In this document: piece by piece, positions 10,556 to 26,191 of the stretch
Layout: every line of letters starts with the position of its first letter
How positions within the stretch are numbered: the first letter of the stretch is position 1
The notes under the pieces: generated by a model
Told to the model about the DNA's origin: nothing
The model's input: only the letters and a program-made list of their open reading frames with translations
Databases searched by the model: none
Made by a program: the position numbers and the translations under genes
From: a virus
IMG/VR virus record: IMGVR_UViG_3300044742_000232
Span: 1-64,000 of that record
Length of the DNA: 64,000 bases
Direction: 5' to 3' (one strand)

Positions 10556-10565
10556 CAAATAAAAG

Positions 10566-11066: not shown

Positions 11067-11070
11067 TTTT

Positions 11071-12084
11071 TTACTCCACGTCTATACTGTCTTCGTTTCT
11101 TGAGCGGAAGTAAGATCGGATTTGGTCGCGCAGTTTTATTGATCGCGCGCCATGATGGACATTGAGTCTGTAAAGACCCTGAGGATCGCGTGATATGTCT
11201 ACATTGGGGTCATACTGATTGTCCACAAGAATTTTCCACCGATCTACATATTTTCTATCTTTTTTATTACCATGCCAGTGATGTGTAATAAGTCCAGGAA
11301 CATAACCGATATTTCTACGCAGTCTTTGTTCAGCTATTTCCTGCCAGTTCATAAGATGTTCGCGATAACTATTTGTTACCCAAGCTGGAATAGACCTATG
11401 CACTTGACCAATCAAAGCCATTGCCATATGGTGATCAGCAGAGCCTAGAATTGCTTTATCAAAAAGATTGATCTTCTCTAAGGCTGTTCGGCGCGCCGCC
11501 CAAGCATAACCACAGTGCCAGAACCCGCTTCCTTTTGCTCCACTCATTACACCTCCATAATAATCTCTATTATCGCCCTTGAACTTTGGAGTGTAACCTG
11601 GACCTACTGGCGGACCATAATCATTCTGAAAATAAGACCAGACGAAACCGTTTTGTTGTTGGATAGGCTCATATCTTGGTCCTAAGTCAACAACATGAGA
11701 AAACATTTGAACAATATCATAATGTTGAAGTTGATGAACTGTTTCCATAATAATATCTTGTCTTTGGAAATGAACATCAGCATCACACCAACCAACATAC
11801 TTCCAATCTTTATCCAACTGACAAAGGTATTGAATGCCAAGGTTGATCAGATTCTCTTTATGCCATAACTCTTGATCGGTTCTAAATTGCAGATGCATCG
11901 GATTGCCAGCTTGAGTCAAATGAAATGGTCTGTCACCATAAGCACATTCAACAACTAGCAACTGAGCCCCGACATCCTGCATGTGTCGCGCAAATTCTTG
12001 AAACAAACGTGCGCGAGTATGATATCTAACTGGATTAGAGCAAACAGCGATTATGTAAAACTTTTCAGTAGGAACAGTGAACAC
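11071..12084 (-). CDS. GT-A type glycosyltransferase
   Basis: 337 residues. N-terminal FYIIAVCSNPVRYHTRARLFQEF, then YVGWCDADVHFQRQD with a D-x-D nucleotide-sugar/metal motif near residue 105, SGFWHCGYAWAARRTALEKI, and SADHHMAMAL. The C-terminal HHWHGNKKDRKYVDRWKIL is typical of phage and bacterial galactosyl-type transferases. It may glycosylate phage DNA, a virion protein or host surface. It is followed by the DNA polymerase gene. Confidence 0.8.
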   Translation of the reverse strand: MFTVPTEKFYIIAVCSNPVRYHTRARLFQEFARHMQDVGAQLLVVECAYGDRPFHLTQAGNPMHLQFRTDQELWHKENLINLGIQYLCQLDKDWKYVGWCDADVHFQRQDIIMETVHQLQHYDIVQMFSHVVDLGPRYEPIQQQNGFVWSYFQNDYGPPVGPGYTPKFKGDNRDYYGGVMSGAKGSGFWHCGYAWAARRTALEKINLFDKAILGSADHHMAMALIGQVHRSIPAWVTNSYREHLMNWQEIAEQRLRRNIGYVPGLITHHWHGNKKDRKYVDRWKILVDNQYDPNVDISRDPQGLYRLNVHHGARSIKLRDQIRSYFRSRNEDSIDVE

Positions 12085-12099
12085 TAATTATATATCCTC

Positions 12100-14577
12100 T
12101 TACTCAAAAAATCCTTCTAAGGTTGAGTTATCGCTTACATTCCAGCCTATGGCATCCAAAATTGATGTAATGGGGTTCAAAAATGTCTTCTCAAACATCA
12201 GATCATAGTCTATAAACTTGTCCAAATTTAGCTCTTTTGGTAAATGCCTTGGCGCAGCAATTACAGGTGATAACGACGGATTTGGTGTTTTTAGATAGAT
12301 GAACTTTATTTTATCACGATCATAAATCAGACTATATTTGTTCGTCAATCCGTTTTTTGACACCAGATTATTGTAAATTATTGAAGCTTTTGTATGTATC
12401 GGCGTGTGTTTTTTATAGAGTGTCACGCCATCTTTGTATTTAGTTATCCCATTGACACCACGAGGGAAAGCAATCTCATCAAACGTGCTTTTTTTGAACT
12501 CCTCACGATATTCTGCAATGAACTGCTTTATGTCAGCTTCCGTGCCATTAAAGATCAGTTTGATAGCTTTTTTCATGGCATCTCGGGACTTCTGGGGGAT
12601 AACAGAACGCACGACTTCAATCCCAACGTGCTTTATTTCCGCTTCCTTATAACGTATACCTTCTAAGTCCCAGACGTTGAGAATATATCGCTTCTTTGTC
12701 GTCCAAATTGCTTTGTCAATGATGGATTCGCGCTTCATCTTCAGACAATTTTCATAGGCATTCATTCTGCCAGAAAACTCTTGGAATCCTTTCTTGATCA
12801 CTGGCTGAAAAACTGTCTCAGCATCGCGGGCCAAGATATCAATCGTCTCGGCATGAGTAGCATTAGGATAGAGCTTCTGAACGTAATCCTTGAGTGTAAT
12901 ATAGCATGAATCTGTATCCATTGCAATAACATAATCAACGTTCGCTGTATTCAACAGACCATTAAGAAAAACGTTAAATTCCCTCTCAATCCAACGAATC
13001 GCTCGCTGCCCACTCATGGTGATGGCAGAAGAAAGCCGCCAATCATACCAACGAAAGTATTGGTTAGCGAGTCCTCCATAAAGAGAATTTAGCTGAATTT
13101 TCTTGGCTTGCTGGAAGTTCCAATATTTCTGTATCTCTTTCTCATCAGCCTTTACAGCCTTCAACTCCAGCATTTTTTTCTTATATTGCGCGCGAAGCTT
13201 GAACTGTCTTTGCATTAGTTCAGGAAGAAACCCATGCACATCTTTTCTAAACCTAGCACCATTACTACATTGCGTATAGCTCTGATTTACATAAATCGTG
13301 CCATTACAAATCCCTTCATAAAAAGATTCTGACATCTCCTTATGATCAATGAACGTTTCAGGAGAGATGTTTCCCCACATGATAAGATGAGGGTAAAGAC
13401 TTTCCAAATCAAATGAAACAACCCACTCATACAAACCTTTCTCCGGTTGTTTCACAAACGCACCAGGAATGCCCATAGGTTCAGTGCGCATACTGCTCGG
13501 AATAACAATGTTCTTATCCAACAAATAGTTATGAATAATCACATCCCAAAGCAGCACAGAAGTCAGAGAATCAATATAATTAACCTTAGCATCATAAGCA
13601 ATCGTATAACAAAGCTCTAAATATTTGTTCTTTTGATCAATATCAGCAACACGATCAATATCTGTTATGTTATAATCAACAAATTTCTCATAGTTCTTTT
13701 CACACAACTCATCTAACGAAGCATACTCAGAAAAATCTAGCTTTCTTTTACCAGTTTCATGAAAAGCAACATTATCCAGACTATAAGATTCTAGTTTGTA
13801 AGGTTTGAACTTGATATACAAATCATAGTAGTCAAGAATTGCGACACCGACAGGAATATAAATTTGTTGCTCTCGACCTTTGATTTCGATCCGTTTTTCT
13901 CTCAAAAGACCCCAAGGAGAAAGACGTTGCGCCGCCGCATCTCCAAACAAAAGACGTATGCGATTGACAATGAAAGGAATATCATACTTCTCTACTGCCC
14001 ATCCTGTCACTACATCAGGCCGAAACTCATCATTCGCCCAGAAGCTAATGAACTTGGCCAGCATATCCTTTTCGTCTTTGCACTTGATATACATCACGTT
14101 CTTAGTTTTTGGTGTATATTCTCCCTTCCAACCAAAAACTAGACGCTGATTTTTTAGACCGATACCAATCAAAGTAATAGGTCCATTCGCCTTTTCTACT
14201 TCGGCAAATGAACCATCATCAGCTTTACCAGTTTCAATATCAAGATTATGCACCATAATCTTGTCTGGATCATATTCTATATCTTTGAAATTATCGTTTA
14301 TGTAGGTATAAACAAACCTCTCCAGCCCGAATAGCTTGAAGTTTGGAACCTCGGAATACTTTTTATAAAACTCTCTAGCTTTATAGATGCTGTCAAATTG
14401 TTTTTTCTTAACAAACTTCCCATGAACAGTCTTATAGGCCGACTTTAGATCGGTTGGCCCATAAGTGAAAAGATAAGGTTTATAAGGAACCTCTTGCTTA
14501 TAGCGCTTCCCATTAAGATACCCGTTGACAAGAATTTTGTTCTTATGGATAGCAACATTCGTATAGAAATCAGACAT
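12100..14577 (-). CDS. 43: Family B DNA polymerase, T4 gp43 type
   Basis: About 825 residues. Exonuclease motifs are present (HNLDIETGKADDG; GWAVEKYDIPF). Polymerase motif A is VSFDLESLYPHLIMW, motif B KKIQLNSLYGGLANQYF, and motif C IAMDTDSCYITL. It is the replicative polymerase with proofreading, working with gp45/44/62 encoded at 23-26 kb. Start ATG 14577 overlaps the stop of the upstream acetyltransferase. No split or intein is seen. Confidence 0.97.
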   Translation of the reverse strand: MSDFYTNVAIHKNKILVNGYLNGKRYKQEVPYKPYLFTYGPTDLKSAYKTVHGKFVKKKQFDSIYKAREFYKKYSEVPNFKLFGLERFVYTYINDNFKDIEYDPDKIMVHNLDIETGKADDGSFAEVEKANGPITLIGIGLKNQRLVFGWKGEYTPKTKNVMYIKCKDEKDMLAKFISFWANDEFRPDVVTGWAVEKYDIPFIVNRIRLLFGDAAAQRLSPWGLLREKRIEIKGREQQIYIPVGVAILDYYDLYIKFKPYKLESYSLDNVAFHETGKRKLDFSEYASLDELCEKNYEKFVDYNITDIDRVADIDQKNKYLELCYTIAYDAKVNYIDSLTSVLLWDVIIHNYLLDKNIVIPSSMRTEPMGIPGAFVKQPEKGLYEWVVSFDLESLYPHLIMWGNISPETFIDHKEMSESFYEGICNGTIYVNQSYTQCSNGARFRKDVHGFLPELMQRQFKLRAQYKKKMLELKAVKADEKEIQKYWNFQQAKKIQLNSLYGGLANQYFRWYDWRLSSAITMSGQRAIRWIEREFNVFLNGLLNTANVDYVIAMDTDSCYITLKDYVQKLYPNATHAETIDILARDAETVFQPVIKKGFQEFSGRMNAYENCLKMKRESIIDKAIWTTKKRYILNVWDLEGIRYKEAEIKHVGIEVVRSVIPQKSRDAMKKAIKLIFNGTEADIKQFIAEYREEFKKSTFDEIAFPRGVNGITKYKDGVTLYKKHTPIHTKASIIYNNLVSKNGLTNKYSLIYDRDKIKFIYLKTPNPSLSPVIAAPRHLPKELNLDKFIDYDLMFEKTFLNPITSILDAIGWNVSDNSTLEGFFE

Positions 14578-15016
14578 TTTCAAAATTTGGGGCTGCCAAC
14601 TCTTTTGTCATTAATATCCAATCGCCATGAAATCCAACCGGGAGAAATCCACGTTTCTGAAAAAGTTCATTCTCTTTCGTCATCAACATAACGAAAGTTC
14701 CCCCTAATTTCTTAATTTCTTCCAAACGTTTTTCTGTGAGAAGACGTGCAATACCTTTATTTCTTTCCTCCTTGTCAACAACGCATCCATTTAGCTCATA
14801 AACGCCATGCAAAATGTGGCTCTGTATAAAGCCAGCAAATCCAATGACAAACTTCATTTTATCTACTGCCACATAATATTCTGGCTTCCAAGAAGAGTTG
14901 TCAAATGTCGTGTTTACTTCAGCGAAGATTCTATCTGCTACGTCCGTGCCCCATTCATTATAGAGCAAACGATAGATATCAGGAGTATCAATGATCTGTG
15001 CTTTTCGGATGATCAT
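14570..15016 (-). CDS. GNAT-family N-acetyltransferase
   Basis: 148 residues. ELNGCVVDKEERNKGIARLLTEKRLEEIKKLG holds motif A (the acetyl-CoA pyrophosphate loop, RNKGIA). The C-terminal FQKRGFLPVGFHGDWILM matches motif B. The acceptor is unknown. The gene overlaps both neighbours, RNA ligase upstream and polymerase downstream. Confidence 0.8.
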   Translation of the reverse strand: MIIRKAQIIDTPDIYRLLYNEWGTDVADRIFAEVNTTFDNSSWKPEYYVAVDKMKFVIGFAGFIQSHILHGVYELNGCVVDKEERNKGIARLLTEKRLEEIKKLGGTFVMLMTKENELFQKRGFLPVGFHGDWILMTKELAAPNFENV

Positions 15017-15645
15017 GTTTTCACTCCATTCTTAATGACTTTACTTGCAAACCAATGTTTTTGTTGGTCACTGACATGGTTTGACCGCACCCACTTAGCA
15101 CAATGACAGTGGAAGGTGTCAAGATAAATTTCGTCTGTCCTACGAACAACAAAGCCTTCCTGAGTCTTTAGATTTAGCTTAGCTGCAACTGACGTTAGAG
15201 CCTCAAAAGAAAAAGGGCCGCGATAAAGAACAGGAACAAGGGCAAATTCATGCTCTGTGCAATATTTTACTGTGTCATCCCAAGAAAAACACTCATTTTC
15301 TTTCCAGACAGAATGGACATAAAAATAGGACACCAAATCCTTGTAATGGATTGTGTGTTGAGCATACATATTTTCTCCGCAAACACGGATATCTTTTTCA
15401 ATCACTGATCTTTTCTTTGCCCAAAAAGCTGCCATCCAATCGCGGGATTCGTGCTTTCTGATGCCATTGATAGAACGAGCGTGCCAGTGATCACTATAGA
15501 GTGTCGTGTTCTCTCCATCCATTTTTTCAGTGCAAACAATTTCTTCTGAACGAAGATTATCAATGTCTATGAGTTTTTCATCATCATAGGCATAACCTGG
15601 AGAAAAGGGGAGATGTGGAGTTCTGGGATATTTCACACTGCTCAT
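15013..15645 (-). CDS. RNA ligase (nucleotidyltransferase ligase family)
   Basis: About 210 residues. Motif I is EKMDGENT, with the Lys that takes AMP. HARSINGIRK, the motif III-like SYFYVHSVWKENECF, motif IV EGFVVRR and motif V HCAKWVRSN follow. It seals RNA 5'-phosphate/3'-OH ends with ATP, probably repairing tRNAs cut by host defence nucleases. The second ATG (15645) is preferred because AGGA lies about 10 bases before it. See the other RNA-repair-like genes at 30-40 kb. Confidence 0.85.
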   Translation of the reverse strand: MSSVKYPRTPHLPFSPGYAYDDEKLIDIDNLRSEEIVCTEKMDGENTTLYSDHWHARSINGIRKHESRDWMAAFWAKKRSVIEKDIRVCGENMYAQHTIHYKDLVSYFYVHSVWKENECFSWDDTVKYCTEHEFALVPVLYRGPFSFEALTSVAAKLNLKTQEGFVVRRTDEIYLDTFHCHCAKWVRSNHVSDQQKHWFASKVIKNGVKT

Positions 15646-15650
15646 GTTTA

Positions 15651-16016
15651 TCATATCCTATTTAGGTCTAGATCACAAAGGAATTTAGCAGATTTCCAGT
15701 GAAATGCAAGGTGTTTATCGCCGCGATAGACTTCATTTCTGGGCACAATGTAAACAGAAACAAAGAACCCAAATTCATAGTCCATATAACGACGTGCATC
15801 ATCTGAGAACCATCTTTTGAGTTGTTTTATTGAATGAAACCCATAGTAAAACTCATTTGGATTTTTACCATCGGCTCTAATTTTTTGTTTTATTGTATAT
15901 GGTCCTGGACATCTTTTAGCATCATTTCTGTGTGGACCTGGACCGGCATGATATGGTCCTAATTTCTTTTGATTTTCTACTCGGTAAATTTTTGTGTATT
16001 TTCTACCATGAGTCAT
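15651..16016 (-). CDS. Basic protein, unknown
   Basis: 121 residues, MTHGRKYTKIYRVENQKKLG, with a Gly/Pro/His-rich part (GPYHAGPGPHRNDAKRCPGP) and YGFHSIKQLKRWFSDDARRY. No family recognised. Overlaps both neighbours by a few bases. Confidence 0.65.
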   Translation of the reverse strand: MTHGRKYTKIYRVENQKKLGPYHAGPGPHRNDAKRCPGPYTIKQKIRADGKNPNEFYYGFHSIKQLKRWFSDDARRYMDYEFGFFVSVYIVPRNEVYRGDKHLAFHWKSAKFLCDLDLNRI

Positions 16017-16224
16017 AATCGGTTATGTCTTTGAATACACCGTGGGGTTGATCTTCATTTCTTATTGAAACAACTGCGACTTGACCGATGACACTATCTC
16101 TAGAGAGATCGATTCTAATGCGCATCATTTTAGCATTGAATTTAGGAGGTTTGTTTTCCTGGACAAAGGCCCAAAGAGCACAAACCTCCTTATAATTCAA
16201 AACAATTTCAGAAACTTTAGACAC
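16003..16224 (-). CDS. Small protein, unknown
   Basis: 73 residues, MSKVSEIVLNYKEVCALWAF. It starts just after the TROVE-like gene stop and may be co-transcribed with it. No family recognised. Confidence 0.6.
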   Translation of the reverse strand: MSKVSEIVLNYKEVCALWAFVQENKPPKFNAKMMRIRIDLSRDSVIGQVAVVSIRNEDQPHGVFKDITDYDSW

Positions 16225-16226
16225 AT

Positions 16227-17651
16227 TTATTCCAAATTGTATCTATCAACCAGCAAAGTTTTTAGCATGATCTGATAGGGACTAAAAGCTTCCATATCAG
16301 CTGCCAGAACGGATTTCAGAATAGAAGGTGAAAATCCGCTCACTAGGGCTGTGCCATTAGCATCAAACTTCACCGGAACGTTGTCATAAGAATTGATGTT
16401 CCAGAAAGTTACTTTTGGCATTTTGTAACCAGCCTCGGTATATTTGCGATCAATCATCTCAATCGCAGAGTCATCATGCCGCACACAATGATCAAATTGC
16501 ATGTCCGACAGGATTAGAAGCATCTCAGGCATTTCTTCCTGAGGCACACGACCTTGAACAGCAGTTTGGAGAATCTTATCCAAAGCCGCATGTAGATTGG
16601 TGTTCATCTCCCATTTGGACTTCACCATCTGATCAATCTTCTGGAGGATATTACCCTTCAGATTGAGCAACTGAGGAACAGCAGAGAAAGTCAAGAACGT
16701 ATCCTTGAACTTACCCTTGTTCTTATCAGCGCAATAAAGACCAAGTGAAACCGCAACCTCAATAGCCGTAAGGCCAGACTTGCTCACTGGCGAAGTCATA
16801 GAGCCTGAAACGTCCACAAGAGGAAGAACGCTGACATCACCCATATAGTTGGGCAGTGCTTCCCATTGAGCCTGGATTAGGTTGTTCTCGGTTGAACCAT
16901 ACATAACTCCATAGGGAGAAATCTTACCCTTCAGAACGTCATAGGGATAAACAGCACCCGAATTGACTTTGACACCAACAGCGCGCTCTTCCTGTGGCTT
17001 CATTAGCTCCGCTACATACTCCGCATACTTTGGAGTATGACGAAAGAATGCTTTTTTGTAACGTGCCGCAGCAACAGAAGGCACATGAGAGAAATTGATA
17101 TTATCCCAATCTTTTGCGCACATCTGAGTTTCAACCACGCGCGTTAGCTCAACTAGAAGCTTGCGGTAGTATTTTGGGCTCACGCCAAGAAACTGCCGTA
17201 GCTCTTCCGCGTTGGGGCCTTTGCGGGGCATCCACTTGGCGCACAGACCGTTGCCACTAGCTAGAGCCTCCGACATGAGCGCAAAGGCTGCTTGGCGCAC
17301 CTCGGACGTTTCCAGGGCGAACAGATCGTCCCAGCGGCCAAGCTCTGGAGTCTTGGGAATGAGCTTTAGAACAGCGTCCCGGTCATTCTTCTCAAGGTAT
17401 TTGAGCAGATCACGGAATATCTGACGCTCACCGGCACCGCCACGGATATCACGCACCCATTGCGCAATTCTCAAAGCAATGTCGCGATCTTCAGCCATCG
17501 CAGCAGCAAAGGCCGGAACCACGTCTTTGCCCCTGGAAGCACCAATCTTGAAGAAAAGATCAACACAAGGATTTGCAGTAGATTTACGCGCCTTCATAAA
17601 GTTTTCAGTGCGCGCCTCTTGATTCAATACAGCATTCACAAACGTAGTCAT
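16227..17651 (-). CDS. DUF2828/TROVE-like vWA protein (Ro60-like)
   Basis: 474 residues from MTTFVNAVLNQEART (ribosome site GAAAGGATACTGACA). The N-terminal two thirds is helical with NPCVDLFFKIGASRG, WVRDIRGGAGERQIFRDLL and PELGRWDDLFAL, the signature of DUF2828/TROVE-type repeats. The C-terminal third is a von Willebrand A domain with MIDAS residues PLVDVSGSM, a Thr in EMNTNLHAALD, and LILSDMQFD. Proteins of this plan (Ro60, bacterial Rsr) are RNA-binding rings that use Y RNAs with tRNA-like parts. Directly upstream is a block of seven structured RNA modules, the last ending 30 bases before this start codon. Confidence 0.75.
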   Translation of the reverse strand: MTTFVNAVLNQEARTENFMKARKSTANPCVDLFFKIGASRGKDVVPAFAAAMAEDRDIALRIAQWVRDIRGGAGERQIFRDLLKYLEKNDRDAVLKLIPKTPELGRWDDLFALETSEVRQAAFALMSEALASGNGLCAKWMPRKGPNAEELRQFLGVSPKYYRKLLVELTRVVETQMCAKDWDNINFSHVPSVAAARYKKAFFRHTPKYAEYVAELMKPQEERAVGVKVNSGAVYPYDVLKGKISPYGVMYGSTENNLIQAQWEALPNYMGDVSVLPLVDVSGSMTSPVSKSGLTAIEVAVSLGLYCADKNKGKFKDTFLTFSAVPQLLNLKGNILQKIDQMVKSKWEMNTNLHAALDKILQTAVQGRVPQEEMPEMLLILSDMQFDHCVRHDDSAIEMIDRKYTEAGYKMPKVTFWNINSYDNVPVKFDANGTALVSGFSPSILKSVLAADMEAFSPYQIMLKTLLVDRYNLE

Positions 17652-17680
17652 TGTCAGTATCCTTTCGTTTTTATACACAC

Positions 17681-17793
17681 AGAATGAAAAAATTCAAGGT
17701 TGTATTTTTATATACCCCTTGTTTGTGGAATTGAACCACTAATCTCCCGGTTAGGGAAGATATTTACCATTTTTGTTTTGCGGAACTCATTCT
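17681..17793 (-). repeat. RNA module 7
   Basis: Closing stem AGAATGAG/TTCATTCT (one G-U), then TTCCGCAAAACAAAAA. Inside is a tRNA T-arm-like GTGG-TTCAATT-CCAC and a stem-loop CTTCC/GGGAG. It ends 30 bases before the TROVE-like start codon. Confidence 0.7.
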
Positions 17794-17803
17794 AAAATCT
17801 TAC

Positions 17804-17873
17804 AGTATCACATCTTACTACCGATTTCAAGTCAGTTGTCTTGTTAAGACTTTTATGTTGCGGAAGTGATACT
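17804..17873 (-). repeat. RNA module 6
   Basis: Perfect 8-bp closing stem AGTATCAC/GTGATACT, then TTCCGCAACATAAAAG. The interior holds the hairpin GTCTT-AAC-AAGAC. Confidence 0.75.
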
Positions 17874-17885
17874 AAAAAATAACAC

Positions 17886-17975
17886 TGGTTGCCGGCGACT
17901 TTACGCTATCTTTCATCAGTTTGAATGGCACCCGAAGGCACCTTTGATTTGGTTTTGGTTTGCAGAAGGCAGCCA
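17886..17975 (-). repeat. RNA module 5
   Basis: Closing stem TGGCTGCC/GGCAACCA (one C-A mismatch), then TTCTGCAAACCAAAAC. The interior holds GGTGCC-TTCG-GGTGCC, a 6-bp stem with a UUCG tetraloop (17927-17942). Confidence 0.65.
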
Positions 17976-17990
17976 TAAACTTTTAGAAAC

Positions 17991-18158
17991 AGATTGTCTT
18001 TTTTTACTTGCGGTCGGCGCATTGCTCCTTTTTACGGGAACCGCTCGCCCCACCCTTTCACCATCACCTGTGAAAGCGTCATCAAAATACTCCGTGAAGA
18101 GGTCTTCTACCTTAGGACCGTTATTTTTCAAAAACTTTTTAGTTGCTGAAAACAATCT
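17991..18158 (-). repeat. RNA module 4, with 23S rRNA-like segment
   Basis: Closing stem AGATTGTT/GACAATCT (one G-U), then TTCAGCAACTAAAAAG. This is the largest module (168 bases). It contains CTTTCAC/GTGAAAG and GGTC/GACC stems and, at 18107-18124, ATAACGGTCCTAAGGTAG, identical to the universally conserved helix 69-71 region of bacterial 23S rRNA. Confidence 0.7.
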
Positions 18159-18174
18159 AAAAAAGGTATATATC

Positions 18175-18267
18175 AGCATCATATAAGTTGCCGATTTGAA
18201 CGGCTCCTTCTGATTAAAAGTCAGATGCTCTACCATTGAGCTAGTTTTTGTTTGCGGAAATGATGCT
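18175..18267 (-). repeat. RNA module 3, tRNA-Lys-like
   Basis: Perfect closing stem AGCATCAT/ATGATGCT, then TTCCGCAAACAAAAAC. Inside is a D-arm GCTC-AATGGTA-GAGC, an anticodon arm TCTGA-CTTTTAA-TCAGA (anticodon TTT) and a T-arm GCCG-TTCAAAT-CGGC. There is no ordinary 7-bp acceptor stem and no encoded CCA, so this is a tRNA mimic rather than a working tRNA. Confidence 0.75.
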
Positions 18268-18286
18268 AAATTCTATTTATATCAAC

Positions 18287-18342
18287 TGGATAACTTTTTT
18301 GCTAATGTTCGCAGCATTATTTTTGGTTGCTGAAATTATCCA
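18287..18342 (-). repeat. RNA module 2
   Basis: Closing stem TGGATAAT/GTTATCCA (one G-U), then TTCAGCAACCAAAAA. The interior has the short hairpin AATG/CATT. Confidence 0.7.
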
Positions 18343-18349
18343 AAATTCA

Positions 18350-18407
18350 CTGGTTGGGGTTTTACTATTATTACCAAATAATATTTTGTGCTGCTGTAGC
18401 CAACCAA
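18350..18407 (-). repeat. RNA module 1
   Basis: Closing stem TTGGTTGG/CCAACCAG (one G-U), then the divergent motif CTACAGCAGCACAAAAT. The interior has the hairpin ATTATT-TGGT-AATAAT. Confidence 0.6.
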
Positions 18408-18503
18408 GCTCTCATAATCTAACTTCTATATCGTTGTTTGTTACTCCAATAAGGAAATCAATTTAGATTGGCTTGATGACAAGTGAAGAACCAATCTGAC
18501 AAT

Positions 18504-18532
18504 AGGATACTATAGGCTAAAGGGAATGTCAA
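18504..18532 (-). promoter_or_regulatory. Host-type promoter of the structured RNA
   Basis: TTGACA, exactly 17 bases, then TATCCT on the minus strand, placed just after the stop of the vWA gene. The predicted start near 18497 coincides with the first arm of the leading hairpin. Confidence 0.65.
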
Positions 18533-18550
18533 CTAGAATCTTACCAATCC

Positions 18551-19579
18551 TCAATTATTGACACCAGCCCAATATAACACGCGCGTCCCACTCTTCACCT
18601 TGCGGTTTGTGGACGTGGACTGAATGAATATGTCATAATCCCCATGGTCGCCGGGAATGAGCTTCACATTACCAAACTCAGGCAAACCGAGAAGTGATCG
18701 CGTTCCAGCCCCAGAATAAACCTTTTGTGTGGTCTTATTCTGAATACAGATTCTCTTATAATCTTGAACATTACTCTCAGTCTTTGACAACTCATAGAAA
18801 GCGCAACCTTTCTTATAAATTCCAATCTTATTCATGCAAAACTCAAAGATTTCTTTATCATGATCCTTGGAACCGACTTTCAAAAGTTGCACATCCTTAG
18901 TGATATCTTGAGCCACCTTTGCAACTGTGCTTGGTTTCACATCAGCTAGGTTGCTATAGAATGCTCTTGTGCTCTTCACACCTCGGGAGCGGGCTTCATA
19001 AAAGTCCTGAGTAGCAGCCATTGTAGTATAGGTGGCAGCTTCCATACCTTCTTCAGTTTGATCCCATTCCAGAATATTTCCTTCAGGAATTCCAAACTTC
19101 GCTAGGATTCTTTTCTGGCCTCTTGGAACGCGAAAAACAAAAGTCCAACGATCTGTGGCTTGAAGTTTGCGAATTTTTTCTCCTAGAATATAACCACTAA
19201 TCTTGGAAGAATTCTCTTCTCCATCAGTAATGATATTGAGAAGAAATATTACTTCTGGATCGTTTGCATCAGGTGCATCTTGTAGAATAGAAATAAGCTC
19301 ATTCACACTATCAAACAATGGCGTGGAATATCCATCTGTGATATATGAACGTTCTGGAATTGGTTGAAGAGCTACGATACTTGAATTGATCGTTTCTCTT
19401 TCAACTCTTCCTTGAGAACCAACACCACACTTGACTGTGCTAACGATTGTGTCTTGATTATTTTTGGACGCCGCTTCTTTGATAGCAGCAATCATATCAT
19501 TGTAATCTCTAGCTGCCGCTTTGGCTAGATGTGTCATAGAACGGCTGTGATCACGGCTAAAGCCTATGTAATTTTTCAT
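18551..19579 (-). CDS. von Willebrand A domain protein
   Basis: 342 residues. The N-terminal FSRDHSRSM gives the D-x-S-x-S MIDAS (D10, S12, S14). TDGYSTPLFDSVNEL supplies the Thr and IITDGEENSSKISGY the last Asp. The C-terminal half (from about residue 200) is unassigned. It lies directly upstream of the seven-module RNA and the TROVE-like vWA gene, all on one strand, so a joint ribonucleoprotein role is inferred. A CTAAATA motif sits 48 bases upstream. Confidence 0.75.
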   Translation of the reverse strand: MKNYIGFSRDHSRSMTHLAKAAARDYNDMIAAIKEAASKNNQDTIVSTVKCGVGSQGRVERETINSSIVALQPIPERSYITDGYSTPLFDSVNELISILQDAPDANDPEVIFLLNIITDGEENSSKISGYILGEKIRKLQATDRWTFVFRVPRGQKRILAKFGIPEGNILEWDQTEEGMEAATYTTMAATQDFYEARSRGVKSTRAFYSNLADVKPSTVAKVAQDITKDVQLLKVGSKDHDKEIFEFCMNKIGIYKKGCAFYELSKTESNVQDYKRICIQNKTTQKVYSGAGTRSLLGLPEFGNVKLIPGDHGDYDIFIQSTSTNRKVKSGTRVLYWAGVNN

Positions 19580-19626
19580 ATTTTTTATTCTCCGTATTAG
19601 TTATATTGTTGTATTAGTAGATACTG

Positions 19627-19633
19627 TATTTAG
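19627..19633 (-). promoter_or_regulatory. Late promoter motif CTAAATA
   Basis: Lies 48 bases before the vWA start at 19579 and overlaps the stop codon of the upstream gene. Spacing matches the other late motifs, but the overlap with a stop makes chance possible. Confidence 0.4.
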
Positions 19634-20118
19634 GTCGCGATAGCACTACCAACAGGAGGAGGACTCGGACCAATAAATTGTCCATCTTTTACCGTTCCTT
19701 TGAAGCCCACGCCAAGTGAATGATCAGGTAGAGCTTTTACACTCTTTCCTTTGTTTGCCAGACGCACCTTTGTCGTAGCAATATTTTCAGCCGTTTGAGT
19801 GATCCATTTTTGAATAGCACCATTGATCAAATCGGAAACCAAGGAATAGGGGAAGGCTGCATTTGGACCGATGATAGCCATCTTTCCTTTGATCAAAAAT
19901 TCATCACCAAGGAGGAGAATCGAGAAGTGTTGTTCTCCTAGACCAGTGATAGAAATCTTGATATGGTATTGGCCTTCATCCTCTCTTGTGACATTATAAA
20001 GAGCCTGCGTAAAGTCAATATTTGCAGCATTCTTCACAATGAAGTCACGTAATCCAACTTTCAAGGTGTCCACAAGATCATCAATCATAGGGATGTTCTC
20101 CTTTTTAGATTTGGTCAT
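19630..20118 (-). CDS. Unknown protein
   Basis: 162 residues, MTKSKKENIPMIDDLVDTLK. Alternating strands (YHIKISITGLGEQHFSILLLGDEFLIKGK) then a helix, a basic patch and a Pro-rich C terminus. TAAGGTAA precedes ATG. No family recognised. Confidence 0.65.
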   Translation of the reverse strand: MTKSKKENIPMIDDLVDTLKVGLRDFIVKNAANIDFTQALYNVTREDEGQYHIKISITGLGEQHFSILLLGDEFLIKGKMAIIGPNAAFPYSLVSDLINGAIQKWITQTAENIATTKVRLANKGKSVKALPDHSLGVGFKGTVKDGQFIGPSPPPVGSAIAT

Positions 20119-20170
20119 TTACCTTATAAAACATTATATAAAACTAATCAACAACAAATATGACCTGTCC

Positions 20171-20608
20171 TCATAATTTTTCATAGCCAATTTCACTTGA
20201 ATAAATGACGTTTTGGATACCAAATTCAGCAATAGCACGCTGACAACCAACACAAGGTTTACTCAGGCCAAAAATAAACTTTTCTTTGGCTGAACTTTCA
20301 TATTTCATTCGGCATATATAAAGTGTTGACTTTGCTAACTCTTTGAGAGACAATTGTTTTAGAGCCAAAAGAATAGCTTGTGTTTCTGAATGAAGATAAA
20401 TGGAATCACTGTTCTTACCATACTTGGCCTGGAAGGGATGAGTCTTGCGACGGTTGATCCCTATAGCCACAACATCGCCCTTGTAGACCACAGCGCTCGC
20501 CAGACGCGCTTGAGCCACGGGCGGCACTGTGACAGCCACCTTAGACAAAAGCGTTAAAAACTTCTGATGATTGTTGTTTGTCGGAAAAAAGTTCGGCATC
20601 TTGAGCAT
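20171..20608 (-). CDS. Cytidine/deoxycytidylate deaminase-like protein
   Basis: 145 residues. Zinc motif 1 is YLHSETQAILLAL (H-x-E form) and motif 2 is SKPCVGCQRAIAEFGIQNVIYS (P-C-x-x-C). It likely deaminates a cytosine nucleotide, supplying dUMP for thymidylate as phage dCMP deaminases do. Start ATG has AAGGATAACG before it, inside the 3' end of the HNH gene (68-base overlap). Confidence 0.75.
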   Translation of the reverse strand: MLKMPNFFPTNNNHQKFLTLLSKVAVTVPPVAQARLASAVVYKGDVVAIGINRRKTHPFQAKYGKNSDSIYLHSETQAILLALKQLSLKELAKSTLYICRMKYESSAKEKFIFGLSKPCVGCQRAIAEFGIQNVIYSSEIGYEKL

Positions 20609-21047
20609 CGTTATCCTTGTTCACAAAAAACGCAAGAGTGCTTTTATAATTTTTCATACATCCTTTTACGAAACTTGTTATTTCATCTTTTGTCATTACA
20701 ACCTTATTTTTTTCACAATCAACGTATATTAAACCATCATGAAATAGACGATGACAACATGCACACAGTATCACACATTTATGCATTTCTTCTATAATAG
20801 ATTTTGTAGAAAATCTTCCGGCCAAAAGCCTTGAAACTTCGTCAACTTTAGTTGATGGATCAATGTGATGAAAATCAAGACAAATAGGCACCTGTCTCCA
20901 TCCTCCACATGCTACACAACATTTCTTTGAAAGATAGTCATTAAAAGCAACAAATCGGCGGTCGTATCGTGTTTTTTGATGTAGATTACGTTTTTCTCTT
21001 TTTTCTCTTTTTTTCTTTTCAATTTCAATATTAATAAGTTCAGTCAA
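20541..21047 (-). CDS. HNH endonuclease
   Basis: 168 residues with a TTG start after AAAGGAGTG. Zinc/HNH residues: KKCCVACGGWRQVP, CLDFHHIDPSTK, and CVILCACCHRLFHDGL. The basic N terminus (EKKKREKREKRN) suits DNA binding. It is probably a free-standing homing endonuclease; it overlaps the start of the deaminase gene and sits next to a second HNH gene. Confidence 0.8.
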   Translation of the reverse strand: MTELINIEIEKKKREKREKRNLHQKTRYDRRFVAFNDYLSKKCCVACGGWRQVPICLDFHHIDPSTKVDEVSRLLAGRFSTKSIIEEMHKCVILCACCHRLFHDGLIYVDCEKNKVVMTKDEITSFVKGCMKNYKSTLAFFVNKDNDAQDAELFSDKQQSSEVFNAFV

Positions 21048-21063
21048 TACTATAACACTCCTT

Positions 21064-21540
21064 TCATTTAGACCAACGTTTCATGTAATCTCTTATTTGA
21101 GCCTCAATTAAATATCTATACCGAGAATGCCAATATTTATGATGGGTAGGACATAAAGGTATCAAATTATTTGGAGCATTGTTTTCATGATTTTCATCTA
21201 AGTGATGAACCTCAACTAACTTGCTTTCTTGACATATAACACATGATTTATCATGATAGCGAAAGCATAATGCTCTATATGACGATAACTTATGATCTGG
21301 AATTCTCTTAAAATACTTATTTGAACAAGAATAAGAACACGTTGTTCCTGTTTTATAATTTTTGATTGGGTTTCTACAAATTGGACAGTAAACTATATTT
21401 TTTGAGTTCAAATAGCACGATTGTTCGTGTTTCATAATATTAGCAATAGTTCGCGCTTCACCACAAAAAATGCAAATTTTATGCGTATTAAGTGCTATTA
21501 ATCTAGCATGATTAATTGTATTCTTAGTCAGTTGAAACAA
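21064..21540 (-). CDS. HNH endonuclease with extra zinc fingers
   Basis: 158 residues, probable TTG start. Two Cys pairs (ICIFCGEA; VYCPICRNPI) precede CVICQESKLVEVHHLDENHENN and LIPLCPTHHKYWH, a classic HNH core. It starts inside the end of the gene at 21524 and abuts the other HNH gene, so this looks like a pair of homing endonuclease insertions. Confidence 0.8.
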   Translation of the reverse strand: MFQLTKNTINHARLIALNTHKICIFCGEARTIANIMKHEQSCYLNSKNIVYCPICRNPIKNYKTGTTCSYSCSNKYFKRIPDHKLSSYRALCFRYHDKSCVICQESKLVEVHHLDENHENNAPNNLIPLCPTHHKYWHSRYRYLIEAQIRDYMKRWSK

Positions 21541-21757
21541 AACCGCCCATATTGATGCGGAAGATCAAATGTTTCAGCTGTTGAATACGAGTTTCTTGAG
21601 CTTCTATTGCATCAGCACGGCGGCGCAAGATTTCTGATTCTGGTATAGCTATAGTTTGAGTACATTGCAAACCGGGGTCTAGGTCTTTTGAAATTTCTTC
21701 CAAAAGTTTGATATCTTCATGTTGAAGCTGGTAAAGGGCTTGGTAAGACATTGACAT
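21524..21757 (-). CDS. Small helical protein, unknown
   Basis: 77 residues, MSMSYQALYQLQHEDIKLLE, predicted all helix with a coiled-coil-like end. Overlaps the upstream gene by 41 bases. No family recognised. Confidence 0.6.
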   Translation of the reverse strand: MSMSYQALYQLQHEDIKLLEEISKDLDPGLQCTQTIAIPESEILRRRADAIEAQETRIQQLKHLIFRINMGGFVSTD

Positions 21758-22358
21758 CCTCTTTCACTGTTCCTCCGAGAGCGGAACTTGATAATGCTTG
21801 CGGTTGTATTTTTTCTTCAGGCGGGTTCGTTTCGGCTTGAACGGGCTGTTCTTGCTGAATAATTCCGTCGCTCTGATTTTCTGGTGTTTGGACAAGCGGT
21901 TGCGGTTCTTCTTTTTCATCTTGAAGTCGTTTTCGTTCTAGTGCCTCTTGGAGTGTAATGAAACTCCCATCTGGTTGTTTTCTAGCAATGCCTTTTGGCC
22001 AACGAGCTAGATTTTTCAGATTACTTGGCATATGTCCTTTCTTTGGACCTGATTTTCCTCTTACTTTTTCTGAAAAAGCCACGGTTTCTGGAGATGGTAT
22101 CTGAATTTTTGCTTCCGTTTTCTTTTCTAATGATGCATTGTGCCGCTCAACAATATCCCTACCAACAGCTTGTTCAACGAATCCATTGTATTGAGGACCA
22201 CCTACCCATCTTTGCATCGTGGCAAGCTTATATCCTTCTCCTTTCTTTGGAGCCGTTGAGACATAACAGGTATAGAAAGTTTCAGGATAGCCACTTACTC
22301 CAATCACTGTCTCATTATGTTCGTGTAAATACCATTTTACCTTCAATACATCATCCAT
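21717..22358 (-). CDS. Protein with disordered Gln/Pro/Glu tail, unknown
   Basis: 213 residues. The N-terminal 65 residues (KVKWYLHEHNETVIGVSGYP) look folded. A basic linker GKSGPKKGHMPSNLK follows, and after residue 140 the sequence is Gln/Pro/Glu-rich and probably disordered. No family recognised. Confidence 0.65.
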   Translation of the reverse strand: MDDVLKVKWYLHEHNETVIGVSGYPETFYTCYVSTAPKKGEGYKLATMQRWVGGPQYNGFVEQAVGRDIVERHNASLEKKTEAKIQIPSPETVAFSEKVRGKSGPKKGHMPSNLKNLARWPKGIARKQPDGSFITLQEALERKRLQDEKEEPQPLVQTPENQSDGIIQQEQPVQAETNPPEEKIQPQALSSSALGGTVKEDVNVLPSPLPAST

Positions 22359-22596
22359 CAGATTCTTTTTCTCCTAAACATTCAATACAATATAGTTTCA
22401 GTTCGTCTCTACATTCTTTCTCAGTTTCAAATGGTCCATAACGCTCGGACCATGATTCATCAAAAAACCACCAGCCATCATCATCTTCATGAACCGGATC
22501 ATGAACCCAGTCTTCACCATACTTTGGCTGTTCAATAACAATCACTTTGGTCGTCCTTTTATCTTGCCGATAGTATACTTGCTCTCTAAGGTCCAT
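22351..22596 (-). CDS. Small acidic Trp-rich protein, unknown
   Basis: 81 residues. YGEDWVHDPVHEDDDGWWFF is a dense acidic and aromatic stretch; the C terminus has YCIECLGE. Overlaps regA and the next gene. No family recognised. Confidence 0.65.
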   Translation of the reverse strand: MDLREQVYYRQDKRTTKVIVIEQPKYGEDWVHDPVHEDDDGWWFFDESWSERYGPFETEKECRDELKLYCIECLGEKESDG

Positions 22597-22949
22597 TCTG
22601 CTTTTTCCTTGAAGCTTATGATTTTGATGTTAGAAAGCGTTGCGCGAGGTTCTTTTATTTCTTCTTGATTGAGAACTGTGAGTAGTTTCCACTCCTCTAA
22701 AAGAGATGCAATTGTGTTTCGTCTAGCTTTATCTTCACTCGTAAAACTTGTTTCTTTACCATCTAAAGCAAATAGTTCCTTGAAGTGAAGCAGGTAGTAA
22801 AGCCCCTTTTTGTGGAGGATATGAACGCTCTGATATAGTTTCTTATCTTTCTTAGAAGCTATTCCTACCCGCGTAAGAGTTTCCTTTATTTTCAGGAAAT
22901 CATTTTTGTCGTTGAATTTTATCTCAACACCTAAACCATTTATCAACAT
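22542..22949 (-). CDS. regA: RegA translational repressor
   Basis: About 135 residues, close to T4 RegA in length. LKIKETLTRVGIASKKDK, LYQSVHILHKKGLYYLLHFKELFALDG and KYTIGK are the family's conserved stretches. RegA binds ribosome sites of early phage messages and blocks their translation. It follows gp62 as in T4 (45-44-62-regA-43), although the polymerase gene here is about 8 kb further downstream. Start ATG 22949 is 6 bases after AGAAGGA. Confidence 0.93.
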   Translation of the reverse strand: MLINGLGVEIKFNDKNDFLKIKETLTRVGIASKKDKKLYQSVHILHKKGLYYLLHFKELFALDGKETSFTSEDKARRNTIASLLEEWKLLTVLNQEEIKEPRATLSNIKIISFKEKAEWTLESKYTIGKIKGRPK

Positions 22950-22960
22950 AATCATTCCTT

Positions 22961-23359
22961 CTAAATGTCTTTTTTCAAACCTCCTCTATTACTACGCTGT
23001 TTGATTTCTTTGAGTTGTTCAGACGATAGAATAGCTAGGGCTTCTTTTGCTTTTTTTACGTTATAACCAAAGAAAGTTTGGATCAATTCCACATCATCAA
23101 GTTTTTCTGAACGATGTATTTTACTAAATCGTTTCCTTGGTCTGACTGTATTTAGAAGATAGACATACTGGTTTCGTGGAGCGATCCTGTGATTTTTGTC
23201 CATATTATAAGCATAGAAAAGGGTATCTTTATGATAGGACAGCATGAGGTTGATGAAATAGGGGGCATAATCTTTATCAATGCGCTCATCGTCCCGAAGA
23301 TCATCTTTCTTGACGTTGATGCTGTTGATAAAGCGATACTTGTCTAGCCCTTCATCCAT
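22961..23359 (-). CDS. 62: Clamp-loader small subunit, T4 gp62 type
   Basis: About 132 residues from MDEGLDKYRFINSINVKKDD. KDYAPYFINLMLSYHKDTLFYAYNMD, LLNTVRPRKRFSKIHRSEK and the C-terminal YNVKKAKEALAILSSEQLKEIK are the gp62 pattern of T4-like phages. It joins gp44 to load the gp45 clamp. Two small genes lie between it and gp44. Confidence 0.85.
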   Translation of the reverse strand: MDEGLDKYRFINSINVKKDDLRDDERIDKDYAPYFINLMLSYHKDTLFYAYNMDKNHRIAPRNQYVYLLNTVRPRKRFSKIHRSEKLDDVELIQTFFGYNVKKAKEALAILSSEQLKEIKQRSNRGGLKKDI

Positions 23360-23550
23360 TTTTTGTCTTTCAAATAATCCAAAGTATTGAAGCACTCACT
23401 ACAAATGCTCATATTATAGACTTGCTGCGCGCCTTCATCATTCTTAGCCAGATACTCTATTTCATGATCTTTGGAGTGCATCCGGCCGCACATTCCGCAG
23501 CTTATTTTCGTTTGAAATAAGTTTGCAATTTTATCAAAAAATCTAAACAT
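23344..23550 (-). CDS. Small zinc-ribbon protein
   Basis: 68 residues with CGMCGRMH and ICSECFNTL, a two-pair zinc ribbon. It overlaps the start of gp62 by 16 bases and is wedged between clamp-loader genes. Function unknown. Confidence 0.65.
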   Translation of the reverse strand: MFRFFDKIANLFQTKISCGMCGRMHSKDHEIEYLAKNDEGAQQVYNMSICSECFNTLDYLKDKKWMKG

Positions 23551-23699
23551 GCGTCCTTATAATTCCTTTGTTCTTCTGGTGAGTCCCATAAAAGAACGTT
23601 ATTTTTACATTTTATTATTTTACAAATAGCATCTCCAATCTCAGTTGCCATTTGTTCAGTTGCAAAGCCACAGTCTCTCATATGTTTTTCTGTCATCAT
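23502..23699 (-). CDS. Small protein, unknown
   Basis: About 65 residues from MMTEKHMRDCGFATEQM. The ATG overlaps the gp44 stop (ATGATG) and AAAGGAG precedes it by 7 bases. No family recognised. Confidence 0.6.
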   Translation of the reverse strand: MMTEKHMRDCGFATEQMATEIGDAICKIIKCKNNVLLWDSPEEQRNYKDACLDFLIKLQTYFKRK

Positions 23700-24640
23700 A
23701 GCCATTCTCCTTTCAAGTGCAGCATCAGGTCCACAAGGCAAGCTGTCATGTTTATCTCATGGTTGAGAGAGAACGCAGCTTCATATTCATATTTTCCGAT
23801 CAACAGGACTGCCATAGGTTGTCCGATTTTTGTTAGGCTGGATAACATATTGCTGTAGAGATTATGATAGAAATCATTTGAGTCCATCGTATTTTCTGCG
23901 ACCCATTTTCTTATATCAGTAAAATTCTGCTCCTTCACAAAGCCAATCAGCTTCTTCAGGGAAACGTCAGTGAAATTACTAAGGATACCAGCGTCTATCT
24001 TACCACAACCGGCATAACCTTGCAATTCCATCAGCATCTTGCGCCAGTCAGGAAACCTCTTTTCTATGACTTTGGCAAGGATTTGTTTGTCATATTTGAC
24101 CTTTTCTTGATCCAGGATTGAAATAACCCGATCAAGAAACTGACAAGCAAGATCAACCTTCTCCTGAAGCTCTATCGTGAAATCTATAGTCTTGCATCTG
24201 GAATGAAGCGGCTCAATGATCTTACCAGGATAATTGCAAGTAAGAATGAACCCGCAATTATTACCATACATGTCCATAAAACCACGGAGAGCGGGTTGAA
24301 AAGAATTAGGATTGAGATTATCGGCTTCATCCAAAACGACGTATTTTCTACCTCCATAAAATGAAACAGAGGTAGCATAATTGAGAATATCATTGCGTAA
24401 AGTATCAAGATTTCTATCAAGGGAAGCGTTGTAGAACTTATAATCGCTGGCCAACTCATCTAGCATCGCCCTTGCTGCCGAGGTTTTACCAATACCAGGA
24501 GAGCCACACAAAATCAAGTGTGGAATGTTCTTGTCCTTGACATAATTTTGGAAAAGAGATTTGATGCGTTCCGGTAGAATAGCATCAGTTACAGTCTTAG
24601 GACGAAATTTCTCCGACCACAAATACTCATCGCGAAGCAT
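23696..24640 (-). CDS. 44: Clamp-loader ATPase, T4 gp44 type
   Basis: 314 residues. AAA+ core: EKFRPKTVTDAILPE, Walker A GSPGIGKTSAARAM, Walker B YVVLDEADNLNPN, sensor LTCNYPGKI and the SRC motif LHSRCKTIDF. With gp62 it opens the gp45 ring on DNA using ATP. Confidence 0.95.
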   Translation of the reverse strand: MLRDEYLWSEKFRPKTVTDAILPERIKSLFQNYVKDKNIPHLILCGSPGIGKTSAARAMLDELASDYKFYNASLDRNLDTLRNDILNYATSVSFYGGRKYVVLDEADNLNPNSFQPALRGFMDMYGNNCGFILTCNYPGKIIEPLHSRCKTIDFTIELQEKVDLACQFLDRVISILDQEKVKYDKQILAKVIEKRFPDWRKMLMELQGYAGCGKIDAGILSNFTDVSLKKLIGFVKEQNFTDIRKWVAENTMDSNDFYHNLYSNMLSSLTKIGQPMAVLLIGKYEYEAAFSLNHEINMTACLVDLMLHLKGEWL

Positions 24641-24643
24641 AAT

Positions 24644-24949
24644 TTATCCAATATTTCGTTTCTTCCATTTTCCATCGTCATCCATCAAACCAATCTTCTG
24701 ATAATTCTTCTTCAGTTGATTCAATGAGTAGCCTTCTGGTAATGAAATACATGTTATTCTTTTGATTTCCCCAGTTTCAGAAATTTCCTTGGTGAAACAA
24801 TCTAGAACACCATCCTCCTCAATCATTTTCTTGTTGAGACGGATTTCACGAAAGGTCTTATCATGCTCCTCGTTGCCGAAAGTGACATGAATTTCTTCCG
24901 CATGATAGTCTTCTAACAACCTTTCTATGTTGATGTAAACTATAGCCAT
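24644..24949 (-). CDS. Small protein, unknown
   Basis: About 101 residues from MAIVYINIERLLEDYHAEE, with AAGGGGAAGAAC before ATG. Mixed strands then a C-terminal helix (LNQLKKNYQKIGLMDDDGKW). It lies just upstream of gp44 in the clamp operon. No family recognised. Confidence 0.65.
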   Translation of the reverse strand: MAIVYINIERLLEDYHAEEIHVTFGNEEHDKTFREIRLNKKMIEEDGVLDCFTKEISETGEIKRITCISLPEGYSLNQLKKNYQKIGLMDDDGKWKKRNIG

Positions 24950-24973
24950 GTTCTTCCCCTTGTTCATGGTGTT

Positions 24974-25520: not shown

Positions 25521-25526
25521 ATCACT

Positions 25527-26189: not shown

Positions 26190-26191
26190 TT

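Follow-up and report, generated by a model that had tools for sequence, protein, structure and literature searches.

The window analyzed here is a stretch of 64,000 nucleotides (nt), positions 1 to 64,000 of the 90,474-base viral contig IMGVR_UViG_3300044742_000232, which belongs to a T4-like phage encoding a gp23 major capsid protein, a UvsW-like helicase, and RecA-like and DnaB-like proteins. On its minus strand we identified a gene for a protein with the predicted fold of Ro60 and, 5' of it, a non-coding block holding a row of seven RNA modules (17680-18407) that carry different cargoes on one common handle. A Ro ribonucleoprotein (RNP) with Y-RNA-like modules is, in our judgment, very probable. 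The whole reading, in which a phage Ro RNP uses a multiplexed Y-RNA-like set with exchangeable cargoes as decoys, we hold to be moderately probable. Comparison with related phage sequences supports the shared handle, its linkage to the Ro60-fold gene, the mimicry of other RNAs by the cargoes, and the exchange of cargoes between relatives.

An earlier note on this DNA, made from the letters alone, had described a gene, an RNA block and a second gene on one strand, and this arrangement is borne out: all three lie on the minus strand, in the order vWA-like gene (19579-18551), non-coding RNA block, Ro-like gene (17651-16227). The last module does adjoin the start codon of the Ro-like gene, ending at 17680 with the ATG at 17651, and the gap is 28 bases and not the 30 given before.

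The Ro-like protein

The 474-residue product of 16227-17651 matches the phrog_850 family ("RNA-binding protein") end to end, over residues 1-472 (E 3.9e-142), and has homologues in 682 phage records. Its Pfam matches up to E 0.1 are limited to DUF2828, DUF7788, and a weak VWA_2; the Pfam TROVE model does not match it. In alignment-based searches the sequence found none of the solved Ro60 structures up to E 1, and fold search alone recovered them. An AlphaFold2 model was built from an alignment of 32 window and locus sequences (pLDDT 77.5, pTM 0.74) and ranked against known structures with Foldseek and VIA-align. The top match was the TROVE structure 9kop (Z 16.9, 394 aligned residues, root-mean-square deviation 4.8), followed by 9l5y, the Ro60 of Thermus phage phiLo (Z 15.2), Xenopus Ro60 1yvr (14.7), and Deinococcus radiodurans Rsr 2nvo (12.1). 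The best non-Ro chain reached Z 10.9, over the vWA part only. Because TROVE/Ro60 structures rank first, ahead of unrelated chains, the product is by its modeled fold a Ro60-fold protein, with an alpha-helical repeat at about residues 28-264 and a vWA domain with a metal ion-dependent adhesion site (MIDAS) at about 276-470. The TROVE-like character proposed in the earlier note is thus matched by a Ro60/TROVE fold over most of the length. The MIDAS residues D280, S282, G283, and S284 are invariant among the 32 sequences.

The module array

The seven modules, M0 to M6, were delimited by eye and by repeats; a repeat search found six copies of the motif in the block. All share one layout, in which a terminal stem of 7-10 bp has UUCNGCAA or UACAGCAG immediately on its 5' side, followed by an A-rich run, the cargo, and a 3' CUG or CAG. 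In the full record of 90,474 bases, AGNNNNNNTTCMGCAA is matched at four places, always on the minus strand and inside the block. A covariance model, R1, was derived from 40 small modules of other phages, none from the window's record. Run on the 64-kb window, it returned M1 (E 6e-8), M0 (E 7e-5), and M5 (E 3e-4), the next best hit having an E value of 0.76. A search of the block against Rfam at a permissive threshold gave tRNA and chance matches only.

The modules, all on the minus strand, are given here from 5' to 3'. M0 (18350-18407) has the stem UUGGUUGG/CCAACCAG, the motif variant UACAGCAG, and a small hairpin as cargo; its counterpart in the nearest relative, L386, has the motif UACAGCAA. 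M1 (18286-18343; stem UUGGAUAA/UUAUCCAG, motif UUCAGCAA) carries a hairpin with the loop CUGCGAA, of Arg GCG type, a hairpin drawn by eye whose bases are paired differently in the lowest-energy fold. M2 (18173-18269; 10-bp stem, motif UUCCGCAAACAAAAA) is the tRNA-like module that the earlier note had seen in the block. It carries D, anticodon (UUU, Lys), and T arms, and it scores 47.1 bits against Rfam RF00005 over model positions 8-63, so that the acceptor stem is absent. ARAGORN does not call it as a tRNA, and a complete cloverleaf with acceptor stem is not found in it; its folding energy z score is -3.2. M3 (17990-18159; stem UAGAUUGU/ACAAUCUG, motif UUCAGCAA) has a 144-nt cargo with identities to 23S rRNA and to rnpB, described below. 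The cargo of M4 (17885-17975; stem UGGCUGCC/GGCAACCA with 7 of 8 pairs, motif UUCUGCAA) is left unassigned; the module is kept in L386. M5 (17803-17874; stem UAGUAUCAC/GUGAUACUG, motif UUCCGCAA) carries an anticodon arm with the loop CUUGAAA, of Ser UGA type. The cargo of M6 (17680-17794; stem UAGAAUGA/UCAUUCUG, motif UUCCGCAA) consists of a hairpin, the T arm GUGG-UUCAAUU-CCAC, and an extra hairpin; the T arm is conserved, with altered stem pairs, in the related locus L001.

The handle and its covariation

Across phages, the handle consists of a terminal stem of 8-10 bp, the motif U(U/A)CMGCAA beside the 5' strand and, in most modules, a CUGU 3' end. We chose places by TTTTAGGNNNNGTTCAGCAA alone, a scan pattern that fixes only the 5' half of the stem. 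Among the matches listed, 132 distinct places are followed by a sufficient length of sequence, and the partner strand is present at 120 of them, against an average of 28 (maximum 37) when downstream stretches were swapped and 30 (maximum 40) when the inner four stem letters were shuffled. In cellular genomes, which served as a chance control (at least 118 stretches), the partner strand was present in 15 of 115, which is the chance level, so that the element is not shown there. In the 40 small modules, 71 cells are changed on both sides of the stem versus 22 after shuffling; these modules were preselected for having a stem, and only the comparison with slid and shuffled versions is meaningful. 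Run on 16 other loci, R1 recovered modules at E values of 0.015 or lower in those of Synechococcus phage BUCT-ZZ01, Escherichia phage mistaenkt (three, at L089 4716-4776, 4875-4932, and 5779-5848), Listeria phage P61, and a Campylobacter phage. Judged from these sequence patterns, the terminal stem is a conserved RNA structure.

Linkage to the Ro-like gene

Our locus sample was the best 80 of 443 confirmed viral loci with a Ro-like protein, plus the window (81 in total), and modules were called as a motif with at most one mismatch plus an 8-nt stem. A module lies within 1.5 kb upstream of the Ro-like gene in 73 of the 81, and the co-occurrence of RNA and protein genes in relatives that the earlier note had made a point of its proposal is thus found. 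Counted within 1 kb at loci with at least 100 nt upstream, the density on the upstream sense strand is 2.13/kb (153 in 71.8 kb), compared with 0.01-0.13/kb in control stretches (upstream antisense, 1; within the gene, 14 sense and 5 antisense in 107.8 kb; downstream, 5 sense and 2 antisense in 71.6 kb). The TTTTAGGNNNNGTTCAGCAA places number at least 136 in at least 120 viral stretches; the gene is on the stretch for at least 51 of them and within 1.5 kb downstream for at least 35. R1 detects modules in 13 of 16 records. Matches to AGNNNNNNTTCMGCAA number 2-8 per record in 11 records, some of them by chance (0-5 for a reversed control pattern).

Some modules lie kilobases away from ro, so they are not restricted to its leader. 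The caller places modules downstream of ro in Felix-O1-like, mycobacterial, and staphylococcal phages, among them one downstream of the Ro-like gene of mycobacteriophage Rumpelstiltskin.

Listeria phage P61 has a module (L090, 2752-2809, plus strand; E 0.008) between an upstream gene and its Ro-like gene at 3001. It may correspond to a highly transcribed small RNA beside the Rsr gene of phage CKA15. The Ro-like protein of Ochrobactrum phage vB_OspM_OC (L085, 2944-4347, plus strand) carries the depositors' HHpred-based label "putative Ro sixty-related protein"; neither the caller nor R1 found a module near it.

Cargo classes

We collected 383 distinct modules, of which 349 fit the template and 34 were dropped. 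The cargo is 48 nt or shorter in 184; the larger cargoes have a T arm only (54), T then D arms (20), D then T arms (7), a D arm only (7), or none of these (77). The 20 T-then-D cargoes, recognized by regular expression, have the order of a circularly permuted tRNA, as in YrlA, and all are in other phages. A canonical anticodon arm (Y32, U33, R37, and at least four pairs) is present in 93 of the 184 small cargoes, versus 2.5 after shuffling (maximum 5). Lys UUU, with 20 copies, is among the commonest anticodons, and Tyr GUA occurs four times. In these 93 arms, position 36 is U in 66, A in 22, G in 3, and C in 2 (U or A in 88), and A37 A38 is present in 82. The tRNA genes of the same loci have U in 950, A in 600, C in 610, and G in 538, by redundant counts. 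The enzymes that make t6A and i6A seek U36A37 and A36A37A38.

A second kind of mimicry concerns rRNA. TGGAG followed by TTGAAGG occurs in 13 of 51 cargoes longer than 100 nt, against 0.02 in shuffled sequences; in the L1 stalk of Escherichia coli 23S rRNA, the corresponding words are in reverse order (TGGAG at 2155, TTTGAAG at 2130). The two helices around these words covary (0.705 versus 0.258 shuffled, 0 of 500 shuffles), and covariation together with swapped words is what would be expected of a circularly permuted L1-stalk head. The M3 cargo is identical over 18 nt to 23S rRNA 1916-1933 (none of 300 shuffles exceeded 13) and over 12 nt to RNase P RNA, rnpB (none of 500 exceeded 11). The minimum-energy fold of M3 does not show the pairing of 23S helix 69 (H69). 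Over all cargoes, rRNA matches of 11 nt number 48 versus 11 shuffled and those of 13 nt 13 versus 0.2; because 12 of the 13 longer matches come from a single M3 sequence counted both in L096 and in the window, our claim of rRNA identity is confined to M3 and the L1-stalk set. Interdigitated T-loops are the means by which both the L1 stalk and RNase P hold the tRNA elbow (PMC4810234). Cargoes resembling the L1 stalk or RNase P RNA might bind tRNA in this manner.

Two further groups of larger cargoes recur. Cargoes of about 180-235 nt with GATAGGGTCA and GACCAGAAAATAA sit on the handle at L037 4691, L039 594, L016 4657, L041 920, L138 3331, and L158 9646 (plus strand) and were matched to no known RNA in this analysis. 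Many large cargoes terminate in a T-loop-like hairpin, GAGTTTCGANTTCTC, followed by A-rich AAAAAGTAGAAAA and the 3' stem strand (L017 4792, L035 4878, L038 4868, L101 3399, and others; plus strand).

Exchange of anticodon arms

L386 comes from the same metagenome as L001; its vWA gene is 79 percent identical to that of the window, and it has a syntenic array. The scaffolds of the two are near-identical at an overall identity of about 82 percent. In M2, the arm CUGA-CUUUUAA-UCAG (Lys UUU) of the window is replaced by CACU-CUUAUAA-AGUG (Ile UAU), and outside the anticodon arm the module is identical but for one inserted base. In M5, stem and motif are kept and the loop changes from CUUGAAA (Ser UGA) to CUACGAA (Arg ACG). 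Both modules of L386 fold as drawn. M3 is nearly unchanged, and a reading frame stands in place of M6.

This exchange on a constant scaffold, as read from the sequences, is the result that most favors swappable baits, from a small sample of one pair of relatives. An arms race over tRNA identity would leave just such a difference in anticodon arms between closely related phages. The tRNA mimicry suspected in the earlier note is accordingly supported and also widened, to anticodon arms, permuted tRNAs, L1-stalk imitations, and the exchange of arms.

L386 also has an insert of about 75 nt (about 7605-7690, plus strand) between the counterparts of M3 and M4, with complementary ends GGATGG/CCATCC and without the UUCMGCAA motif.

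Genes and sites around the array

The gene 5' of the array (18551-19579, minus strand) is vWA-like and belongs to phrog_26613. The earlier note had counted two MIDAS-bearing proteins at the flanks. That of the Ro-like protein is the invariant site described above, and a MIDAS-like DHSRS...TDG can be read in 18551-19579; Pfam gives no vWA match for the latter. Its inclusion in the RNP is not supported: a homologue was found in 0 of the 80 Ro-like loci, and in Caulobacter phage Cr30 the vWA gene occurs without a Ro-like match (in a single negative search). Of the relatives, only the near one, L386, keeps it beside the array, and in phage BUCT-ZZ01 it lies downstream instead.

Directly 5' of the array is a promoter-like site, TTGACA-17-TATCCT (18504-18532, minus strand), matching 10 of 12 consensus positions, of a kind whose count across the region is not above chance. 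Between it and M0 lies a hairpin, AGATTGG-...-CCAATCT (about 18471-18503, minus strand), with an unpaired 5' stretch; it lacks a clear motif and may be a degenerate module. Downstream of the Ro-like gene are an RNA ligase gene (PF09414; 15013-15654, minus strand) and then a GNAT acetyltransferase gene, both kept in L001. HNH-like motifs were seen by eye in two adjoining open reading frames (20541-21047 and 21064-21540, minus strand) near the upstream side of the region. A tRNA-Met gene (33271-33350, minus strand) is the sole tRNA gene called in the window, although relatives have large tRNA arrays around ro. A megablast search of window positions 10000-30000 against phages gave zero matches.

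Function of the modules

In the mechanism that we propose, the Ro-like protein would bind the handle. The transcript would be cut into single RNAs or used as a Y-RNA string, and the cargoes (anticodon arms, T arms, acceptor-less tRNA bodies, and rRNA pieces) would titrate proteins that read such structures. Most likely the modules would serve as decoys for host enzymes that attack or act on anticodon arms and so protect translation while the phage infects the cell. That decoy or titration is the main role is plausible, with the balance tilting slightly to the doubtful side, and that defense-system nucleases are the main target we think unlikely. Hughes et al. (2020) proposed YrlA as a competitive inhibitor of anticodon nuclease.

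Several points weigh against this interpretation. Binding, expression, and processing of the modules are predictions from sequence. M0 and M4 fold no better than shuffled sequences and M3 just slightly better, and the folding energy of M4 (z 0.15) lends it no support. The caller found no module in 8 of the 81 loci (two of these, L001 and L059, have less than 100 nt upstream), and no same-strand modules were found upstream of the gene in the cultured phages S13, DLP_6, KVP40, phiAS5, Ochrobactrum OC, and CBB. The module and cargo counts are counts of related sequences, not of independent events, and 91 of the 184 small cargoes and 77 of the 349 modules, with larger cargoes, could be assigned to no known RNA. 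The preference for U36/A36 and A37A38 is unexplained by known anticodon nucleases, and A37-modifying enzymes would fit it. The YrlA studied by Hughes et al. (2020) was not cut by the tRNA nuclease tested.

That preference favors either titration of modification enzymes or a tether and argues against a purely nuclease-based reading. As a tether, the cargoes might bring proteins that bind tRNA or rRNA (enzymes of modification, nucleases, or ribosomal protein L1) to the Ro ring, and Ro would direct them to chosen RNAs or assist the modification or decay of tRNA and rRNA, by analogy with the Ro60-Y RNA-PNPase complex of D. radiodurans, where a Y RNA is known in this role (PMC4726728, PMC8394870). 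DusA and TruB act on YrlA as a substrate, and both the A37-centered bias and the L1-stalk-like cargoes suit such recruitment. However, a tether alone leaves the exchange of arms on a constant scaffold unexplained, and we identified no phage enzyme as its partner in this analysis; we consider it a serious but rather unlikely account. We rank decoys first, narrowly ahead of it. Another proposal makes the Ro RNP a repair platform, on which damaged tRNAs would be offered to the RNA ligase whose gene lies downstream, and a survey of jumbo phages has suggested Ro/TROVE as a platform for RNA repair (PMC7824862). The ligase is near the Ro-like gene in L001 as well, but within the fetched flanks, many of them short, it was found in only 1 of 80 loci, and we regard a repair platform as quite improbable.

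The position of the modules suggests a different possibility, namely that they act in cis in the 5' leader of the ro mRNA, binding Ro and controlling its own translation or mRNA stability, with the cargo secondary. The 28-nt distance in the window and a motif 58-78 nt upstream of the start in many loci would agree with this. It is improbable nonetheless, given modules kilobases from ro or downstream of it in several phage groups and cargoes that are specific imitations of tRNA and rRNA. Least credible of all is that the modules are decayed tRNA genes trapped between repeats, which the tRNA arrays of relatives and the match of one module to tRNA might suggest. Such remnants would not be expected to share a handle with compensatory changes and a strict strand bias, to consist of anticodon arms only or of circularly permuted bodies, or to keep near-identical scaffolds at the overall identity of the window and L386. 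Plain tRNA genes or remnants were rejected on account of handle covariation, strand bias, and permuted bodies.

If the decoy reading is correct, a class of RNA decoys may have to be added to the conflict of phages and bacteria over tRNAs. What Y RNAs bind becomes directly testable, as each cargo points to a likely partner, and a handle that accepts many cargoes may serve as an RNA tool.

Comparison with known RNAs and systems

Bacterial Y RNAs are known to number one or two per Ro60 gene, and YrlA has one tRNA-like domain; phages have rows of Y-RNA-like RNAs with many imitations on one handle, and near relatives swap the anticodon arms and keep the rest. The phage modules have the general features of Y RNAs, a stem joining the ends, a conserved element, a variable distal part, and a gene beside that for Ro60. 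They resemble the Ro60/Rsr-Y RNA RNPs of D. radiodurans (RYPER) and animals in the Ro60 fold of the protein, in the terminal stem that closes the ends next to a variable effector part, and in the RNA genes beside the protein gene. They differ in a protein without a Pfam TROVE match, in having up to six modules in a row (seven in the window, by eye), and in imitating anticodon arms and rRNA.

The likeness to YrlA (RF02553) lies in sibling loci, where cargoes with a permuted T arm, closed acceptor, and D arm score up to 39.3 bits. The handle differs, being AUGCUUGGGGAA-like in the family consensus and UUCAGCAA in the phage, and most phage cargoes are not YrlA-like. The gathering score of 69 was reached in none of 11 records, with no match in the window's record, and no circularly permuted tRNA domain was found in the window. 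Membership of the modules in YrlA was rejected, as all scores fall under the gathering cut-off.

Phage Ro-like proteins, putative phage Y RNAs, and a phage Ro60 structure (9l5y) are already known. The protein family is that of the Ro-like proteins reported with putative Y RNAs from mycobacteriophages and from Listeria phage CKA15, in which small, highly transcribed RNAs lie beside the Rsr gene (PMC12282133). In the text consulted on these phages, we saw no description of a modular build, of classes of cargo, or of their exchange. In the literature searched, we found no description of rows of Y-RNA-like modules with anticodon-arm or L1-stalk imitations or of their exchange, and part of this may be in print. 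The modules are also comparable to phage tRNAs that counter tRNA-targeting defense, in that a phage RNA answers an attack on particular tRNAs: PrrC and PARIS attack tRNA-Lys, retron-Eco7 acts on tRNA-Tyr, and phage tRNAs (tRNA-Tyr, tRNA-Lys) counter them (PMC11555353, PMC11455837). Unlike those tRNAs, which are working molecules that replenish or resist, the modules have no acceptor end.

The Class I RNAs of social amoebas are abundant. Reported from dictyostelids only, they have a terminal stem with compensatory changes, a motif next to the 5' strand, a variable interior, and a CUGU end (PMC7919456). The small phage modules share with them (RF01414) a length of about 60 nt, a short covarying terminal stem, a motif beside the 5' strand (UUACAGCAA in the Rfam consensus), a variable interior, and a 3' CUGU; Class I RNAs differ in being eukaryotic and in an 11-nt motif longer than that of the phages. 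None of 17 records reached the RF01414 gathering score of 41.5, the best match, of 27.4 bits, being that of mistaenkt (E 0.0033 when the stretch was compared with all Rfam by cmscan) and Rumpelstiltskin having one of 18.9 bits (E 0.56). The best match lies near ro and on its strand in 12 of the 17, with about 1.4 expected, for a span of -4 to +2.5 kb that was set after the matches had been seen; the window's record is among the five misses. Matches at E values up to 10 occur in 8 of 14 control genomes. Since the sequence link comes down to some eight motif letters within A/U-rich sequence, homology is no more than possible. As a tentative proposal, which we rate as a minority view, phage modules and Class I RNAs could belong together as a single kind of RNA that serves DUF2828-type Ro proteins as their Y RNAs. 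The phage handle would then display a rapidly changing set of tRNA and rRNA imitations, a programmable rack of baits for enzymes that recognize anticodon arms, chiefly the arms of tRNAs with U36 or A36. Class I RNAs would work alike with an amoeba DUF2828/Ro-like protein. DUF2828 occurs in dictyostelids and in plants. For the Class I RNAs, the comparison offers a concrete lead, a Ro-like protein.

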